IMG/VR virus record: IMGVR_UViG_3300035701_000194
Span: 1 to 29,839 of that record
Strand: one strand, 5' to 3'
Length of the DNA: 29,839 bases
DNA from: a virus
Within the stretch, counting starts at the first letter, position 1. Every line of letters starts with the position of its first letter. Positions 2,055 to 26,009 of the stretch are shown here, in pieces. The notes under the pieces are model-generated. The model was not told the origin of the DNA. It searched no databases and was given only the letters and a program-made list of their open reading frames with translations. The translations under genes were made by a program, and so were the position numbers.

Positions 2055-2418
2055 TTGTATCGTTTGTTCCAAAGAATTAGATTGTGACTGTGACAGTATG
2101 GAATGTCCAATGGGAGGGACTGGATTTACTGCCACTGGGAATTGGGGGTCTACTTTGTTTGATCCGGTAGGAGAAAAAATAGCTCGTTCCTCCATATCTA
2201 CTACTTTGCATACTGTTATCTGTGATGAATGCTTAAGGGAGAAGGCTCATTTTGTTCGCCAGAAGAAACAAGAGAAGGAGTTTGTTACTAAAGAAATAAA
2301 ATCCTTTAGACTAGTATTAAAAGAGCATGAGGCAATAAGAAGTATTCGTGAAGAAGAGGAACGGAAGCAGATGGAAAGGAATGAAGAAGCTACTGATCCA
2401 GAAGAAGGAGCGCACTAA
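2026..2418 (+). CDS. Cys-rich protein with charged C-terminal helix, 130 aa
   Basis: The frame is open from 1912, but the ATG at 2026 (MDVKEPVK) follows a GGAGAA site and avoids deep overlap, so I choose it. Near the N-terminus are CIVC and then CDCD..MEC; a CDEC pair follows at about residue 66. Together they could form a zinc-binding ribbon. The C-terminal third is a long Glu/Lys/Arg-rich helix, probably a coiled coil. The TAATG junction couples it to the next gene. Function unknown. Confidence 0.7.
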   Translation: MDVKEPVKVNCIVCSKELDCDCDSMECPMGGTGFTATGNWGSTLFDPVGEKIARSSISTTLHTVICDECLREKAHFVRQKKQEKEFVTKEIKSFRLVLKEHEAIRSIREEEERKQMERNEEATDPEEGAH

Positions 2419-2744
2419 TGGGTAAAAGTAAAGGTTGTCCTTTGTGTGGGTCTGCCGTGATCCACTCTTGCCCAGGGCCAAAATTAGATAGGTGGATTGA
2501 TTTAAATCTTCCTATTGGTCCTATTAATAATTATGCTCCTGGTGGGAAAGGGGAGGAATTAGATAGTGCTTATAAGCTTGGTATTATTAAACCTGGGATA
2601 TTAATAGATACAGGAAATGAAACCTTATTAGTTGGTGATATAAATTATAATGGTGGTGTTTGTGATGATTGCCATATTGGGAAGAAGTTAATTGTTAAGC
2701 GATACAAAGTTGTTTGGGAGAGAGGTAAGGAGGAAAAGCAATGA
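2418..2744 (+). CDS. Zinc-ribbon-like small protein, 108 aa
   Basis: The protein begins with GCPLCGS and has a second pair, CDDC, near residue 85, so a four-Cys zinc ribbon with a long insertion is likely. The middle is rich in Gly, Asn and Pro. An ATGA overlap joins it to the prepilin-like gene downstream. The zinc-ribbon reading rests only on Cys spacing. It could be a nucleic-acid-binding or adaptor protein. Confidence 0.7.
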   Translation: MGKSKGCPLCGSAVIHSCPGPKLDRWIDLNLPIGPINNYAPGGKGEELDSAYKLGIIKPGILIDTGNETLLVGDINYNGGVCDDCHIGKKLIVKRYKVVWERGKEEKQ

Positions 2745-2965
2745 GAAAAGGATTTACTGCTATTGAGCTTATGATATGTATTTCTGTTGTAGCAATAATA
2801 TTAGCAATTATCTTTGGTGGTAATAAGGAAAGAACGGAAAGGGAAAAGAAAGAGTACATAGAGTTAATGAAGAAACAAGATCCAAAGAAGTATGAAAGAT
2901 TACAGCAGGAAGAGGACAAGAAGAAGTACGAGGAATTGCAGAAGAAGTTTGAGGAAGAGAAATGA
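2741..2965 (+). CDS. Prepilin-like membrane protein with coiled-coil tail
   Basis: A 74-residue protein whose N-terminus, MRKGFTAIELM, fits the class III (type IV prepilin) signal: short basic leader, Gly before the cut, Phe+1 and Glu+5. A hydrophobic stretch follows to about residue 26. Residues 30-74 are almost entirely Lys/Glu/Gln and predict a coiled coil, so the usual pilin globular head is absent. The start is well supported by GGAGG nine bases before the ATG. In the known family this signal is cut and N-methylated by prepilin peptidase at the inner membrane. Whether the host does this here is inference. It is coupled by ATGA overlaps on both sides. Confidence 0.75.
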   Translation: MRKGFTAIELMICISVVAIILAIIFGGNKERTEREKKEYIELMKKQDPKKYERLQQEEDKKKYEELQKKFEEEK

Positions 2966-3273
2966 AACCAGATAAACACGGTAATCAGGTCTTTGGTGTT
3001 CCAATGCCAAAGACTAAAGAGGTTAATAAAGAAGCTGAGAAGTATCGTAAACTCCTTTGTAAAGTGCTTATGGAGTTTTATGATGTAGCTAGTAGGAATA
3101 TAGGTTTATTGGATTTATGGTATAAGGCAGCTTTGAAGTGCGGATTGACAGTTCGTTTAAAGCATAAAGAGAGGAAGTGTAGAATGAAGGGAAAGAAATG
3201 TTCTTGGTGTGGAACGGCAAAAGCTGTTACTACTTCTGGTCTTTGTAGGGCATGTAATGGGGGTAATTTTTAA
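2962..3273 (+). CDS. Small protein with C-terminal zinc ribbon
   Basis: A basic 103-residue protein. The last 30 residues carry CSWCGTA and then CRACNGG, a CxxC-x15-CxxC arrangement typical of a zinc ribbon. The N-terminal 70 residues look helical. It overlaps its neighbours by ATGA (upstream) and TAATG (downstream). Nucleic-acid binding is plausible but not shown. Confidence 0.7.
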   Translation: MKPDKHGNQVFGVPMPKTKEVNKEAEKYRKLLCKVLMEFYDVASRNIGLLDLWYKAALKCGLTVRLKHKERKCRMKGKKCSWCGTAKAVTTSGLCRACNGGNF

Positions 3274-3464
3274 TGGAAAAGAAAGATTATGTATTTAATA
3301 TGATAATGCTTGGGGCATTGTGTTTATCTTTATTTGCAGCATTGCTTACTACGTACAATACAAAGGCCGCTTATAAATCCGCGCTTGAAAAAATCCTTAA
3401 AGAACCACAGAATGCCAAGATCATTGCTGAAACTGTATTAGGACTACCGGAGGAAAAGAAATGA
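3273..3464 (+). CDS. Single-pass membrane protein, 63 aa
   Basis: Residues about 9-26 (MIMLGALCLSLFAALL) form one hydrophobic segment after a short charged N-terminus, so this is a small inner-membrane protein with a cytoplasmic or periplasmic helical tail. GGGG lies upstream of the ATG within the overlap. It is the second small membrane protein in this cluster, close behind the prepilin-like gene. Function unknown. Confidence 0.65.
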   Translation: MEKKDYVFNMIMLGALCLSLFAALLTTYNTKAAYKSALEKILKEPQNAKIIAETVLGLPEEKK

Positions 3465-11391: not shown

Positions 11392-11597
11392 TTTGTAACA
11401 TTCAGTCTAATGATATGTGTGTTCATCCCGAATTGTTTACCACTCAATGGGAGCAGAAGAAGCCAGAGCCTTGTCATTTTATGCAATGCAAGTGTGGGAA
11501 GAATACAACTTGTCCTGTGTGTGGGTGGGGAATGGGGTGTTACCCTTGTGACTGTGATGAAGTTGAAGAAAGGAAAGAAATATGGTCAAATGCCTAA
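11388..11597 (+). CDS. Cys-rich small protein, 69 aa
   Basis: A 69-residue protein holding ten Cys. CHFMQCKCG and CPVCG..MGCYPCDCD in residues 29-57 make it the densest candidate metal-binding protein in the cluster. A second frame (11410-11616) overlaps most of it but lacks such structure, so I take this one. It overlaps the first radical-SAM gene by 16 bases. Function unknown; a zinc or iron-sulphur site is possible. Confidence 0.65.
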   Translation: MICNIQSNDMCVHPELFTTQWEQKKPEPCHFMQCKCGKNTTCPVCGWGMGCYPCDCDEVEERKEIWSNA

Positions 11598-12580
11598 ACT
11601 CATTCTATTTACCTAGCGGTCGGATCTTTTTGTTAGATTTAGGTAATGGTTATCCGGTTGAATGTACCGAAATGCGGGATGTTTCCACGGAAGGGAAAGA
11701 GCATCAGGAAGTAAGGAGTTCCAATGACCCCCATGTAATTTGGAACCATCTTAAGCCTTATGAAGAGAAGTGGTTGCTAACTGTTTCAACACAGATGGGT
11801 TGCCCACATAAATGCAAATTTTGTGACGTTCCTTCACTTCAGTTTAAAGGTAATTTAACTCAGGGGGAGATTGAAGATCAGATTAGATTTATTATAGAAG
11901 CAACTCCTTATGTAACTAAATGTAAGAAGGTGAAGATTGGGTTTGCTCGGATGGGTGAGCCAGCCCACAATATAGAGAATGTAATTGGGGCAATGATAAA
12001 TCTTGAGTCTATTTCTAGATTTTATGGGAAAGATTTTCAATGGCTTCCTTGCTTTAACACAATTTTACCAGTTTTCGTAATGGGGGATTTTACTGGAATT
12101 CAGGTATTAGATTCAGTACTCAATTTGAAAGAGGAATTCTTTGATGGGAATCTTCACCTTCAAATCAGTTGCAATTCAACTGATGAAAAGGTTAGAAAGG
12201 ATTTGTTTGGTGGAGCAGAGGTAGTTCCAATAAAAGATATTGTTAAATACATTAATGATAGGCCACTACACAATAGGACCGCTACATTAAACTTTATTGT
12301 AATGAAGGGTGTTCCTGTTGATGTTAATGAACTTATGGGTTATGGACTTAATCCAGAGAAGTTTACAGTAAAGTTAATTCCATTAAATACTACTATTAGG
12401 TCCAAGGACAATAAGTTAGAGACATATGCTAACTATGATAACTATGAAAAGTTACAAGAGTTAGGGGAGGAATTCAAAAAGCATGGTATTCCAATCGTTG
12501 TTGATTCCATTGCTAAGTGTGAGGAAGCTGGTCTATGTTGTGGTCAGCTTGCACAAGTGTTTGTGAAGAAGAATGTATAA
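11582..12580 (+). CDS. Radical-SAM protein of the RlmN/Cfr type, lacking the first catalytic Cys
   Basis: A 332-residue protein. C74-PHK-C78-KF-C81 is the iron-sulphur CxxxCxxC motif. RMGEPAHNIENV near residue 123 matches the RlmN GMGEPLLN..NV segment, KLIPLN matches its NLIPWN, and CCGQLA at 319-324 matches the C-terminal ACGQLA that holds the methyl-carrying Cys (Cys355 in E. coli). RlmN methylates A2503 of 23S rRNA and A37 of some tRNAs; Cfr makes 8-methyladenosine and blocks antibiotics. Both need a second Cys seven residues before the cluster. Here that position is Thr67 (LTVSTQMGC). The reaction is therefore probably altered. It overlaps the next radical-SAM gene by eight bases. Confidence 0.8.
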   Translation: MVKCLNSFYLPSGRIFLLDLGNGYPVECTEMRDVSTEGKEHQEVRSSNDPHVIWNHLKPYEEKWLLTVSTQMGCPHKCKFCDVPSLQFKGNLTQGEIEDQIRFIIEATPYVTKCKKVKIGFARMGEPAHNIENVIGAMINLESISRFYGKDFQWLPCFNTILPVFVMGDFTGIQVLDSVLNLKEEFFDGNLHLQISCNSTDEKVRKDLFGGAEVVPIKDIVKYINDRPLHNRTATLNFIVMKGVPVDVNELMGYGLNPEKFTVKLIPLNTTIRSKDNKLETYANYDNYEKLQELGEEFKKHGIPIVVDSIAKCEEAGLCCGQLAQVFVKKNV

Positions 12581-13295
12581 CTACGCTAGCATTTTGTTCA
12601 CAGGTGTATGCAATGCTAATTGTCCATCTTGTATTGGGAAGCTCCCTGAGTTTAAAAATTTTAAAGGGAATTTATCCATTTATCCATTACCAGGGATGGA
12701 AGCCTTCTTAAAGGAATTAATTTGGGCAAAAACGGAATATATTAGTTTCTCTGGTATTCTTGCTGATCCTCAGCAATATGAGCATGAGATAGAACTAATT
12801 AATTATCTTAGGAAAAAGTTGCCGGGTGTGGTAATTTCATTACATACCAATGGTTTATTAGCATTAAAGAATATGATTGAGTATCGTAATTACGATAGAG
12901 TTACTTTGTCTTTCCCATCTTTCAAAAAAGATATTTATAAAAAAATGACTGGGGTTAACCAAATAGATTTAATTAGGATTCTTGACAGATCTAAACTTTC
13001 AGTAAAATTATCAATGCTCTTGACGGAAGAAACGAAAAATGATATTGATAGTTATATAGAGAAGGCAAGGAGACTTGGTATAAGGAGGGTGGTGATACGA
13101 AGGATGTTTGGTGAGAAAGAGAAAATTAAAGTATTTCCTGTGGATGAGCCATATAAGTATGTTTATGGTAATCCAGTTTATGATGTTAATGGAGTGGAAG
13201 TGACTGTATGGGATTATGCAAAATCCACGGTGAATGCCTTATTCCTATTTCCAGATGGAAGTGTTAGGGGAAGTTTTCTTAGAGAGAATGCTTAA
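12573..13295 (+). CDS. Second radical-SAM protein
   Basis: A 240-residue protein with C13-NAN-C17-PS-C20 right after a first strand (YASILFTGV), the standard place for the radical-SAM cluster. FSGILADP at about residues 59-66 stands where many members have GGEP, so that motif is degenerate. LHTNG near residue 90 fits the next strand. It has no C-terminal SPASM Cys set and does not match QueE or an activase convincingly, so the substrate is unknown. Because it overlaps the RlmN-like gene, the two probably act in one pathway. It ends against the SNF2 gene. Confidence 0.75.
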   Translation: MYNYASILFTGVCNANCPSCIGKLPEFKNFKGNLSIYPLPGMEAFLKELIWAKTEYISFSGILADPQQYEHEIELINYLRKKLPGVVISLHTNGLLALKNMIEYRNYDRVTLSFPSFKKDIYKKMTGVNQIDLIRILDRSKLSVKLSMLLTEETKNDIDSYIEKARRLGIRRVVIRRMFGEKEKIKVFPVDEPYKYVYGNPVYDVNGVEVTVWDYAKSTVNALFLFPDGSVRGSFLRENA

Positions 13296-17259: not shown

Positions 17260-18246
17260 ATGAATATCAATTCAAGTGCGGTTGAAAGTTATCTACGGGA
17301 TCGTACAGAAGTACGGTCTGGGTGGAAGTCTAATGATTCATCTGAAAAGCGTATATGCTGCCCATTCTGTGTTGAAAAGAGGGGTACAGAGGATACAAAA
17401 TTTCATCTTGGGATTAACATAACAAATGGGAAGTTCCATTGTTACCGTTGTGAGTCCGGTGGTTTTATAACAAAACTAATTCGGTTTTGGGATAAGGTAT
17501 CCTTTAGCGATGCAGTAAAAGTAATAGAGGATGTACAAGAAAAGGAAATTTCTATAGATAGATTGGATCTTGGTATAACAAAGCCTAAGAAAGTGGAAGT
17601 TGAAAAGTTAAGTAGAGTAAAGCCCCCAGAGTATTTTGAATCATTAAAAGATGTTGGGCACCCATATTTGGAGAATCGGCGGATAGGAATAGATATGGTG
17701 AATAGTTATGCTCTTGGGGTATGTAAGATTGGGGCGTATAAAAACAGGATTGTGATTCCAGATTTTGATAACGCTGGGGAGTTGATTTATTGGACAGCAA
17801 GAGCAATGGGGGACGAAAACCCAAAGTACTTACATCTTCCAAATTCTTATTCTGGTAAGACCATATTTAACTTTTGGAGAGCAAAGAAACATGATATGAT
17901 AGTTCTTACTGAAGGGCCTTTTGATGCTATGCGGGTTGGTTTCAATGGGGTGGCTACTTACGGGCATTCTATAAAGGATGGACAAAGAAAACTTATATTG
18001 AATAGCTCGGTGAAAGAGGTTGTTTTAATGTATGATTCAGATGTTCCAATAGATGATATTGAAAGTATGGCAGCTGAACTTACATCTTTTAAGAAAGTAT
18101 CTGTTGTATATATACAAAATGGTGATCCTGCTGATCATACACGAGAGGAATTACTTTCAATGATCAATAAAAGAAAGACGATAGATGAAATTTTTTTTGA
18201 GATTTTCTCCAAAATTAGGCTTCATTTCCGAAAGTCGTGTATATAA
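17260..18246 (+). CDS. DNA primase (zinc finger plus TOPRIM)
   Basis: A 328-residue protein. Residues 33-64 hold a zinc finger (CCPFC, then CYRCES: Cys34, Cys37, Cys61, Cys64). The TOPRIM part shows LTEGPFDAMR with Glu218 and then MYDSDVP with Asp259 and Asp261, the metal-binding triad. It lacks the long C-terminal helicase-binding domain of bacterial DnaG and is shorter than that enzyme. It makes RNA primers on the lagging strand together with the DnaB-like helicase just upstream. There is no clear ribosome-binding site before the ATG. The stop lies inside a promoter-like TGTATATAATGTA element. Confidence 0.87.
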   Translation: MNINSSAVESYLRDRTEVRSGWKSNDSSEKRICCPFCVEKRGTEDTKFHLGINITNGKFHCYRCESGGFITKLIRFWDKVSFSDAVKVIEDVQEKEISIDRLDLGITKPKKVEVEKLSRVKPPEYFESLKDVGHPYLENRRIGIDMVNSYALGVCKIGAYKNRIVIPDFDNAGELIYWTARAMGDENPKYLHLPNSYSGKTIFNFWRAKKHDMIVLTEGPFDAMRVGFNGVATYGHSIKDGQRKLILNSSVKEVVLMYDSDVPIDDIESMAAELTSFKKVSVVYIQNGDPADHTREELLSMINKRKTIDEIFFEIFSKIRLHFRKSCI

Positions 18247-20695: not shown

Positions 20696-20705
20696 GAGAA
20701 GAAAA

Positions 20706-21230
20706 ATGAGTGTTATTGCAGTTAGAAAATATAAAGATAGGATTGAAATTGCTTCAGATACCCAAGTTACTATTGATTGGGATTCCAAAGAAAAAAATAG
20801 TTTTGCTAAACTTGGTAGGCTTTCCCCAGATCTTGTAGTTGGATGCTGTGGGGATGCTGGATTATTTGTTTTGCTTAGAGAATATTGTAAAACAAATACA
20901 TTAAGATTTTCTGGTGAAAGTGCTATCATTGAATTTTTTACTAAATTTCATAAGTATGCAAAATCAGAACATATGGATGCTTCTGATTATAATGTAAATA
21001 CTAATACATTTGTTCTTATTCATGGACATACCATTTATGTGGTTGGGGGTTACTATGTGAGGAAAATTAATAATTATTATGCTACGGGCTCTGGTGGAAT
21101 AGCTGCCTTTGTTGCTCTTGACCTGGGAAGTTCAGTAACTAAAGCAGTTCAAGTTGCATGTAAACATAGTATTCATTGTGGACTTCCAGTTAAACATATT
21201 ATTGTTAGAAAGAATAAGAAAAATGGATAA
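20706..21230 (+). CDS. HslV/proteasome-like Ntn hydrolase
   Basis: The frame is open from 20688, but AGGAGAAG lies before the ATG at 20706, giving 174 residues. After Met removal the order fits the proteasome beta/HslV fold: nucleophile-position Ser1 (SVIAVRK), ASDTQVT with Asp17, and AKLGRL with Lys34 close to the catalytic Lys33 of the family. GSGGIAAF in the second half matches HslV GSGGPYA. HslV and most beta subunits use Thr1; Ser1 is rarer but can work. No HslU-type ATPase is visible nearby, so it may use the host unfoldase or act alone. Targets are unknown. Confidence 0.65.
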   Translation: MSVIAVRKYKDRIEIASDTQVTIDWDSKEKNSFAKLGRLSPDLVVGCCGDAGLFVLLREYCKTNTLRFSGESAIIEFFTKFHKYAKSEHMDASDYNVNTNTFVLIHGHTIYVVGGYYVRKINNYYATGSGGIAAFVALDLGSSVTKAVQVACKHSIHCGLPVKHIIVRKNKKNG

Positions 21231-23408: not shown

Positions 23409-26009
23409 ATGGTATTGAGTGGGGTATTACCACCAGGGGCTTTAGGTGATTTAAGGGTTTGTGATAGATGTTCTTGTGTAGGTATTAGGAAAAATGTGGT
23501 TCCTAATAGAATTATTAGGAGTGCCCCTTTAGCTATAATTGGACAGGCACCTGGGGTTACTGAGGATGGTCAGGGGGTAATGCCATTTACTGGTGAGGCT
23601 GGGGATCTTTTATGTGATACTATAGAAAAATTGGGTGGAGATAAGAATAACATTTCTTTATTAAATATTATCCAATGCTTCCCTGGTAGGAATATTGGTG
23701 GGGACAATAAACCTGATGCTAAACAGATTTCAGCCTGTGAATCTTGGAGAGAGAGGGATATAACCTTAGCTTCACCAAAGGTGCTTGTTACACTTGGTGA
23801 TGTTGCCACTAAAGTAATTACTGGTAAGACTGGTATTACGTCGTTAAATGGGAAGCCATTGACTCATCCTAGGTATCCAGAGATAACTATTATACCTGTT
23901 ATCCATCCTGCATATGTGAAACGTAACCCTGAAAAAATGGATGAATTTGTATTCGGTATTACCCAGGCGATAAAGTATGCAACTGGTAAGGTTGTGGAGA
24001 CTAATAAGGATAGTAAATATGTAATTTGTAATACAAAAGAATTGATTGATGAGTGCTTTAAAGAACTTGAATCAGCCAAGATGATTGCGGTGGATATCGA
24101 GACTTCTTCATTAGATTTTACTACTGGATACATACTCTCAATTGGGTTTTCAACCAAGGAGAGAACTGGCTGGTGCATTCCTATTACTACTCATGATCCA
24201 GCCATGTATGAGGCAATCAAAAAGATTAGGGAGAATGAGAAAAAACCTACTCCAATCTCTGATCCAGTGGCTTTCTGTAAGGGGATGGGATTGCAAGAAC
24301 CAAAACAAATAATTGATACGTTATGCCCAGATTTCAAAGATAGGTTAAATGCTATTCTTGGCAGGGAAAATGTTGTAAAAGTACTTCATAATTATAAGTT
24401 TGATAAGATATTCTTGAAGAAGTTTGGGATAAATATTAGTGGGAAGGTATTTGATACTTATGTTGCTCATTATCTCCTTGACGAGAATAGTTATGGTCAT
24501 GGACTGAAGGATTTAGCTTTCAAGTTTACTGATATGGGGGATTACGATAAAGAGATTAAAGATTATTTAAAATCGGATGGGGATAGTTATGTTCTTGTAA
24601 TACCGGAAAAACTGTGTTGGTATAATGCTGCTGATGCCGATGCTACAATTAGGTTAGCTAAAATATTCATTCCAAAGATTCAAGAAGAGGGACTAGAAAT
24701 TTTCATGTCTGGGTTGTTGATGCCAGTTAGTGATTTAATCAGTGAAATAGAAGAAACTGGTATCATAATTGATAATGATTATAGGGATAAGTTGGATGGT
24801 GCATTGACGAAAGAATCAGAAAAACTCGAAAGAAAGTTAAGATCACTTACAAATCCTGATATTAACTTTGGTTCTCCAAAACAGTTGAAAAAACTTCTAT
24901 TTGAGGATCTGAAACTTCCTTCTATTAAAAAGACTGAAAAGGGTAATGACAGTACGGATGCTGAGGTTCTTGAGGAACTGGCCAAAATGCATCCAATCCC
25001 TAATTTATTAACCAATTTGAGAAAAGTAGATAAGTTAAAATCTACTTATGTTGATGGACTTGCAAGTTTCATTCGTATGGACGGGAGGGTTCATGCAAGT
25101 TTTAATGTTGTTGGTGCTGAAACTGGTAGGATAACTGTAAAAGACCCTCCATTACAAACAATGCCAAAGAAGCCTATTGAATTAGTTGATTGGGAGGAAG
25201 TGCTTAAATTAGGTTCTGGGTACATTGATTTAGAATCTGTGCCAAGAAAGAAGTATCACGTTAAAGGATTAGTAATTGCACCACCTAAATTTAAGGTGGT
25301 GGAAATGGATTATTCCCAGGCAGAGCTTAGGATATTAGCGGAGCTTTCCAAGGATGCGGAGTTATGCCTTTGCTTCTTACAGGGGATTGATGTTCACCTT
25401 AAAGTTTCCATTGAAGTGCTTCATATGGCGGAAAATGCGGAGGGTGAGATTAGAGAGATGTTCCGTGGGAGGGCTAAAGTAATTAATTTCGGTATAGCAT
25501 ATGGCATGGGGCCTTCCCTTTTGGCCAAGGAAGCTGGTATTTCCATTGATGAAGCTAAAATGTATTTGGCTGATTGGAAGAGGAAGTTTGAGGGCGTTGC
25601 TGAGTATCAGCGCAATTTGATAGAGGAATGTCGGGAGAGAGGGTATGTAAGGAGTTTATATGGTAGGAAGCGTAGGATTGTTGCTATCAATGATCTTAAT
25701 ATGGATATTAGGCTTCATGCGGAACGTGAGGCTATCAACTTTCCAGTTCAGGCTACAGCAAATGAAATGAATTTGTGGTCTGGAGTAAAGATTAGAAGGG
25801 CGTTATCTAATAAGTTTGAGTTCTATCCAATCAATCTTATCCATGATGCTAACCTTTGGTACGTGAGGGATGATTGTATTAAGGATTTTTGTAAGGAATC
25901 TGCTCAAATTGCTAACCATCCTCCTGGTATTAAACTTCCAATTGAGACTGAATTTAAGGTTTCAGTTGGGAATAGCTGGGGTGACATGGAGAAAGTGGAG
26001 TTAACATGA
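23409..26009 (+). CDS. polA: DNA polymerase A family with N-terminal family-4 uracil-DNA glycosylase domain
   Basis: An 866-residue fusion. Residues 10-195 are a family-4-like UDG: GQAPG at 45-49, PFTGEAG, HPAY at 166-169, and all four iron-sulphur Cys (18, 21, 90, 110). Next comes a 3'-5' exonuclease with Asp229-x-Glu231 (AVDIETSS), LHNYKFD and YNAADADAT. The polymerase palm and fingers show DYSQAELR (motif A), KVINFGIAYGMG (motif B) and LIHDANLW (motif C). Motif C has Ala where Pol I usually has Glu (HDE), an unusual change. A UDG-like domain on a phage polymerase is known from SPO1. It copies the phage genome and may remove or sense uracil at the fork. The 5'-nuclease domain is absent. Confidence 0.93.
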   Translation: MVLSGVLPPGALGDLRVCDRCSCVGIRKNVVPNRIIRSAPLAIIGQAPGVTEDGQGVMPFTGEAGDLLCDTIEKLGGDKNNISLLNIIQCFPGRNIGGDNKPDAKQISACESWRERDITLASPKVLVTLGDVATKVITGKTGITSLNGKPLTHPRYPEITIIPVIHPAYVKRNPEKMDEFVFGITQAIKYATGKVVETNKDSKYVICNTKELIDECFKELESAKMIAVDIETSSLDFTTGYILSIGFSTKERTGWCIPITTHDPAMYEAIKKIRENEKKPTPISDPVAFCKGMGLQEPKQIIDTLCPDFKDRLNAILGRENVVKVLHNYKFDKIFLKKFGINISGKVFDTYVAHYLLDENSYGHGLKDLAFKFTDMGDYDKEIKDYLKSDGDSYVLVIPEKLCWYNAADADATIRLAKIFIPKIQEEGLEIFMSGLLMPVSDLISEIEETGIIIDNDYRDKLDGALTKESEKLERKLRSLTNPDINFGSPKQLKKLLFEDLKLPSIKKTEKGNDSTDAEVLEELAKMHPIPNLLTNLRKVDKLKSTYVDGLASFIRMDGRVHASFNVVGAETGRITVKDPPLQTMPKKPIELVDWEEVLKLGSGYIDLESVPRKKYHVKGLVIAPPKFKVVEMDYSQAELRILAELSKDAELCLCFLQGIDVHLKVSIEVLHMAENAEGEIREMFRGRAKVINFGIAYGMGPSLLAKEAGISIDEAKMYLADWKRKFEGVAEYQRNLIEECRERGYVRSLYGRKRRIVAINDLNMDIRLHAEREAINFPVQATANEMNLWSGVKIRRALSNKFEFYPINLIHDANLWYVRDDCIKDFCKESAQIANHPPGIKLPIETEFKVSVGNSWGDMEKVELT

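Follow-up and report, generated by a model that had tools for sequence, protein, structure and literature searches.

The locus carries a 74-aa gene on the plus strand (2741..2965) of a 29,839-base viral contig, the whole of which is called the window. The gene encodes a mini-prepilin, MRKGFTAIELMICISVVAIILAIIFGGNKERTEREKKEYIELMKKQDPKKYERLQQEEDKKKYEELQKKFEEEK, with an MRKG leader, a prepilin hydrophobic helix and a charged helical tail without a head. Its ATG start codon lies at 2741 and its stop codon at 2963-2965, and a ribosome-binding site, AAGGAGG, can be read from the sequence at 2727..2733, 7 nt 5' of the ATG. The layout is MRKG|FTAIELMICISVVAIILAIIFGG followed by a 47-aa tail: the leader is encoded at 2741..2752, with prepilin peptidase cleavage predicted after Gly4; mature residues 1-23 (2753..2821) form the transmembrane/filament-core helix, whose hydrophobicity was computed and in which the Glu(+5) codon occupies 2765-2767; and the tail spans 2822..2962.

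The gene stands in a run of small same-strand genes and overlaps either neighbor by 4 nt (ATGA). Across its start lies a 108-aa Cys-containing ORF with no family match (2418..2744, plus strand), and across its stop a 103-aa Cys-rich ORF with CxxC pairs (2962..3273, plus strand), for which family searches gave nothing significant. A further 63-aa ORF (3273..3464, plus strand) combines one hydrophobic segment at its N-terminus with a polar tail, lacks a prepilin motif, and is the second small membrane protein in the cluster. Read from sequence, the ATGA overlaps and the AAGGAGG site look as they would in a translated phage operon.

Elsewhere the record encodes a polymerase A that carries a UDG domain, together with DnaB-type helicase, primase, RecA and DNA methylase; since none of its proteins searched was recognised as a head or tail component, it is probably a fragment. 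In the polymerase (23409-26009), an N-terminal uracil-DNA-glycosylase-like domain is fused before the exonuclease and polymerase domains. Two adjacent radical-SAM genes, one slightly below the Pfam cut-off, lie at 11582-13295, and a weak proteasome/HslV-like peptidase match at 20703-21230; in Pseudomonas phage PAK_P3, a gene annotated "peptidase HslV family" lies four genes upstream of a mini-prepilin. Host assignment via RecA in genome contigs returned no match.

The prepilin signal and the headless tail

Two curated models recognise the N-terminus above their cut-offs, namely Pfam N_methyl (PF07963; residues 2-25, 27.9 bits against 21.2) and NCBIfam IV_pilin_GFxxxE (TIGR02532; 29.0 bits against 16.3). 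When the whole record was searched with N_methyl, the mini-prepilin was the sole site found, at 30.1 bits. The leader is short, basic and ends in Gly, and it is followed in FTAIELMICISVVAIILAII by Phe(+1), Thr/Ser(+2), Glu(+5) and a hydrophobic run of about 20 residues, the arrangement of class III signals. Under a rule that combined a basic leader, Gly, a hydrophobic +1 residue, Ser/Thr at +2, Glu at +5 and a hydrophobic stretch, shuffled N-termini gave an expectation of 0.0017 matches per window, against one observed. An HMM trained on the prepilin signals of 168 other ORFs from phage contigs scored the mini-prepilin at 33.5 bits; the best of 40,000 shuffles reached 15.3 bits and none equaled its score. 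Judged by its sequence, ORF 2741-2965 bears a genuine class III (type IV prepilin) signal, as the earlier note had proposed. That note's wider statement, that all main prepilin rules are satisfied, holds for class III signals but not for the type IVa landmarks of the mature helix, Gly14 and Pro22, which are Ala14 and Gly22 here. Matches to DUF4446, SLATT, FliL and similar families fell under curated cut-offs, were driven by the hydrophobic helix and charged tail, and were set aside.

The absence of a pilin head, also claimed beforehand, agrees with the single-sequence AlphaFold2 model (mean pLDDT 85), which consists of helices at 7-46 and 48-73 and nothing else, so that the globular C-terminal head of a type IVa subunit is missing. 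The idea that the remainder is a coiled coil fares poorly. The tail is 66% D/E/K/R, its heptads are weak, with hydrophobic residues at no more than 4 of the 14 a/d positions whichever register is chosen, and it has 16 i/i+4 opposite-charge pairs; on these features of composition and spacing, it is more likely an ER/K-type charged single helix. The best PDB match, 8qag (sc-CC-6-95, a synthetic-looking repeat protein), was rejected as compositional similarity only.

Among known pilins, a close counterpart is the Geobacter short pilin PilA-N (Geopilin domain 1; 7tgg, 9egp), which is headless and helix-only like the window protein. Geobacter chains were the first pilins in a PDB sequence search, where they covered residues 2-25 only and were not significant (E 0.09-0.17). 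The mature Geobacter short pilin has 61 aa (PMC6201914) and the mature window protein would have 70 aa. Headless pilins can thus be real filament subunits, as the Geobacter proteins demonstrate. PilA-N is, however, bacterial, and no PilA-C-like head partner was recognised beside the window gene in family searches, in which the neighboring ORF 2962-3273 had no match. Pseudopilins of type II secretion and competence (GspG/H, ComGC/D/E) have the same N-terminal signal and gave weak matches, but they are bacterial proteins with head domains, and the window matches lie far under the equivalog cut-offs.

Headless prepilins in other phages and their SPFH neighbors

Searches of IMG/VR and phage records with the window protein and two neighboring proteins returned no close homologs. 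The protein type nevertheless recurs in other phages, where the earlier note had suggested a search for homologs, and headless prepilins of ∼29-110 aa are found across many unrelated phage contigs. A DNA pattern for KGFTxxELM yielded 112 stretches in IMG/VR, with about half of the ORFs ≤ 110 aa and many of 29-80 aa, and another pattern, with EL[L/F] at its end, added 46 small ORFs. Combined, the two patterns gave 96 small ORFs in 57 clusters at 60% identity, a few of them truncated at contig ends or possibly host pilins.

Named carriers include Pseudomonas phage PAK_P3 and relatives, Vibrio phages KVP40, nt-1 and 1.081.O, Delftia phage PhiW-14, Acinetobacter phage Acibel004, and Aeromonas phages PX29 and AhP_Mru1, the last with a whole protein of 37 aa; cyanophages carry longer "pilins". 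In KVP40 (AY283928), the signal lies at 17976-18047 within a 72-aa open frame. Mini-prepilins were absent from T4, T5, SPO1, Felix O1, RB43, phiKZ, S-PM2 and P-SSM2 when these were checked, and from Stenotrophomonas phage DLP3, which uses type IV pili and has an SPFH gene. One tblastn survey, biased by its query and therefore no census, matched 175 phage records, almost all from phages of Synechococcus, Pseudomonas, Vibrio, Aeromonas, Acinetobacter, Xanthomonas and Delftia. The host genera of the surveyed mini-prepilin phages are mostly piliated. Pilin matches in "Acinetobacter phage MD-2021a" resemble bacterial contigs (ppdD and pulG annotations) and were left out.

The signal occurs in at least six PHROG families: 10597 (PAK_P3-type), 13280, 11263, 27437 and 11596, all five of "unknown function", and 3433, labeled "pilin". 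Like the window protein, the database mini-prepilins (PHROGs; Acibel004 gp97, "PilE-like") are short, have a class III signal and no recognised head, and are embedded among small hypothetical genes; PX29 gp038 is annotated as "similar to N-terminal part of fimbrial protein". Their tails are unrelated to that of the window protein and their neighbors are not shared with it, and the window protein stands apart from the other phage mini-prepilins compared by a more divergent motif, GFTAIELMICISVV, and a more highly charged tail. Architectures similar to that of the window protein, with charged tails, occur at loci L231, L019, L011, L061/L079 and L099. Taken together, the window protein is a divergent new form of a phage protein type that recurs but is essentially undescribed; a literature search, of incomplete coverage, found no paper on phage-encoded pilins.

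Two further groups are defined by their tails. Mini-prepilins of 63-65 aa at eight loci form a family with the conserved tail C...GGKW.EG...GR.TQLCTYN; several of its contigs exceed 200 kb and an SPFH gene lies near many members. At six other loci the short tail has a common Cys-framed motif, C..GY.F......Q..D..G.G..C, with variable spacers.

No downstream partner is common to all mini-prepilins, and neighbors vary outside a subset that adjoins SPFH/Band-7 genes. An SPFH gene lies within 750 nt of 29 of the 96 small prepilin ORFs and of 2 among 136 longer ORFs (Fisher P = 9e-11, with related sequences counted separately and ORFs drawn from two pattern samples). By cluster, an SPFH neighbor, always on the same strand, is present in 17 of the 42 whose flanks were long enough to judge, and Pfam Band_7 was confirmed in five of seven neighbors submitted. 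A reciprocal test, which partly overlaps the first in that several loci are on contigs already sampled, identified 16 prepilin-signal ORFs at 80 loci found by SPFH alone; 15 of these lay ≤ 405 nt from the SPFH gene, all on the same strand (location P = 6e-13). Prohibitin/HflC-like SPFH genes stand directly beside the mini-prepilin at 18 loci.

Presence of an SPFH gene somewhere in a genome was rejected as a marker: such genes are common in large phages, and so only adjacency is informative. They occur in four of 12 control phage records (T5, RB43, KVP40 and DLP3), and a single-query count, an underestimate, found them in 98 of 50,697 records. The window itself, a 29.8-kb record and probably a fragment, has no SPFH gene in any frame.

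Candidate roles at the host filament machinery

As the leading reading, we consider it possible, with a probability of roughly 40%, that the mini-prepilin is processed by the host and engages a host type IV filament machinery, and less certain that it acts there as an abnormal subunit. No prepilin peptidase was found in any of 24 records tested, comprising 23 with a mini-prepilin or phage pilin and another contig from the phage that the window belongs to, while control genomes were positive as expected; maturation would therefore depend on a host enzyme. Searched with a DNA pattern that left +5 unconstrained, and conditional on an otherwise canonical motif, Glu occupied +5 in 102 of 103 matches and in 50 of 51 small ones, a conservation that recent shared descent from host pilins could explain in part. 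Glu5 is dispensable for processing and required for homopolymeric assembly; Glu5 mutants form no homopolymeric pili, yet are incorporated alongside wild-type subunits (PMC4471445). It pairs with Phe1 of the adjacent subunit and is shared by most minor pilins (PMC5059446). Because a residue that is needed for assembly and dispensable for processing is nearly invariant, a role beyond occupation of the prepilin peptidase PilD is favored. The earlier suggestion that the protein exploits host pilin machinery is supported by the real signal, its recurrence in phages of mostly piliated hosts and the lack of a phage peptidase in the records tested, but loses ground in the form in which the protein would act by occupying PilD alone.

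An alternative reading treats the N-terminus as a borrowed signal-anchor by which a charged helix is positioned on the periplasmic side of the membrane to serve in lysis (spanin-/holin-like), membrane integrity or superinfection exclusion, independently of pili. The long charged helix of the tail and the other one-helix membrane ORF of the cluster (3273-3464) would suit such a role, as would the SPFH/Band-7 membrane-scaffold gene that adjoins the mini-prepilin in many phages. So would a 4.8-kb region at L019, where the mini-prepilin and its neighbor have a similar charged tail and only one of them has the prepilin motif, giving two different membrane anchors for one tail. A plain anchor has no use for Gly(-1)/Phe(+1) and Glu(+5), however; the PHROG spanin and holin matches of the window gene are weak (E 0.1 and 0.023), and no nearby lysis genes were recognised in the searches made. 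We regard this explanation as doubtful.

Less probable still is a pure decoy, in which the protein would merely occupy the host prepilin peptidase (and methylase) so that normal pilins stay immature. The leader-Gly-Phe site is complete and prepilin peptidases are promiscuous (PMC4471445), but very high expression would be required to compete with abundant pilins, and Glu(+5), unnecessary for a decoy, is retained in nearly all small phage prepilins and in the window protein. The sequence pattern is better explained by contact with filament subunits than by a decoy acting on the peptidase alone.

We hold it improbable that the protein is instead a minor-pilin-like helper, promoting or altering host filaments to the benefit of the phage (adhesion, secretion, DNA uptake). 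The assembly of headless Geobacter pilins and the presence of Glu5 in most minor pilins fit this account, and PHROG 3433 ("pilin") is classed as moron/host takeover; against it, the window protein has neither a head nor an adhesive domain, and mini-prepilins are also present in phages considered strictly lytic. Accidental resemblance of an ordinary small membrane protein to a prepilin, which the lone sequence without homologs might suggest, is very improbable given two curated models above cut-off, the low expected number of rule matches and the shuffle scores.

For the abnormal-subunit reading, the steps would be as follows. The mini-prepilin would insert into the host inner membrane with its N-terminus in and C-terminus out. 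Cleavage after Gly4 by host prepilin peptidase would yield a mature helix of 70 aa (Phe1, Thr2, Glu5), which would dock on a host type IV filament machine or its subunits, with the pilus, type II secretion pseudopilus and competence pilus as candidates, and the charged tail would project into the periplasm at the usual place of the pilin head. During infection, the abnormal subunit might then stall, cap or modify the filament, a less certain step, with less piliation and less re-adsorption of pilus-using phages as an example outcome. Pilus blocking by the mini-prepilin, which the earlier note linked to exclusion of other phages, is a plausible candidate effect. Small phage proteins are known to act on the inner-membrane pilus machine: PfsE of Pf4 binds PilC (PMC8764522) and Tip of D3112 binds PilB (PMC8143254), each stopping type IV pili, although neither is described with a prepilin signal. 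Several points count against the abnormal-subunit reading, namely that the window protein has no homologs in the records searched, that the type IVa residues Gly14 and Pro22 are absent, that several mini-prepilin phages have no known pilus dependence, and that a host peptidase and filament are assumed.

Recurrence of headless prepilins in many unrelated phages suggests that phages often interfere with or borrow host pilus machinery. The broader generalization is tentative and, as a whole, rather unlikely: many unrelated phages would use headless, host-matured prepilins as faulty filament subunits, in a large subset as a two-gene module with an SPFH membrane scaffold, and the window gene would count as a divergent member with a charged tail.

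Type IV pili serve as receptors for phages and as machines for virulence and DNA uptake. If true, a recurrent headless pilin made by phages would be a direct route of phage control over them. Mini-prepilins would also supply small proteins with which to study filament assembly and the effect of a subunit without a head, and the presence of this kind of protein in the much-studied phages PAK_P3 and KVP40 makes the proposal directly testable in laboratory strains.
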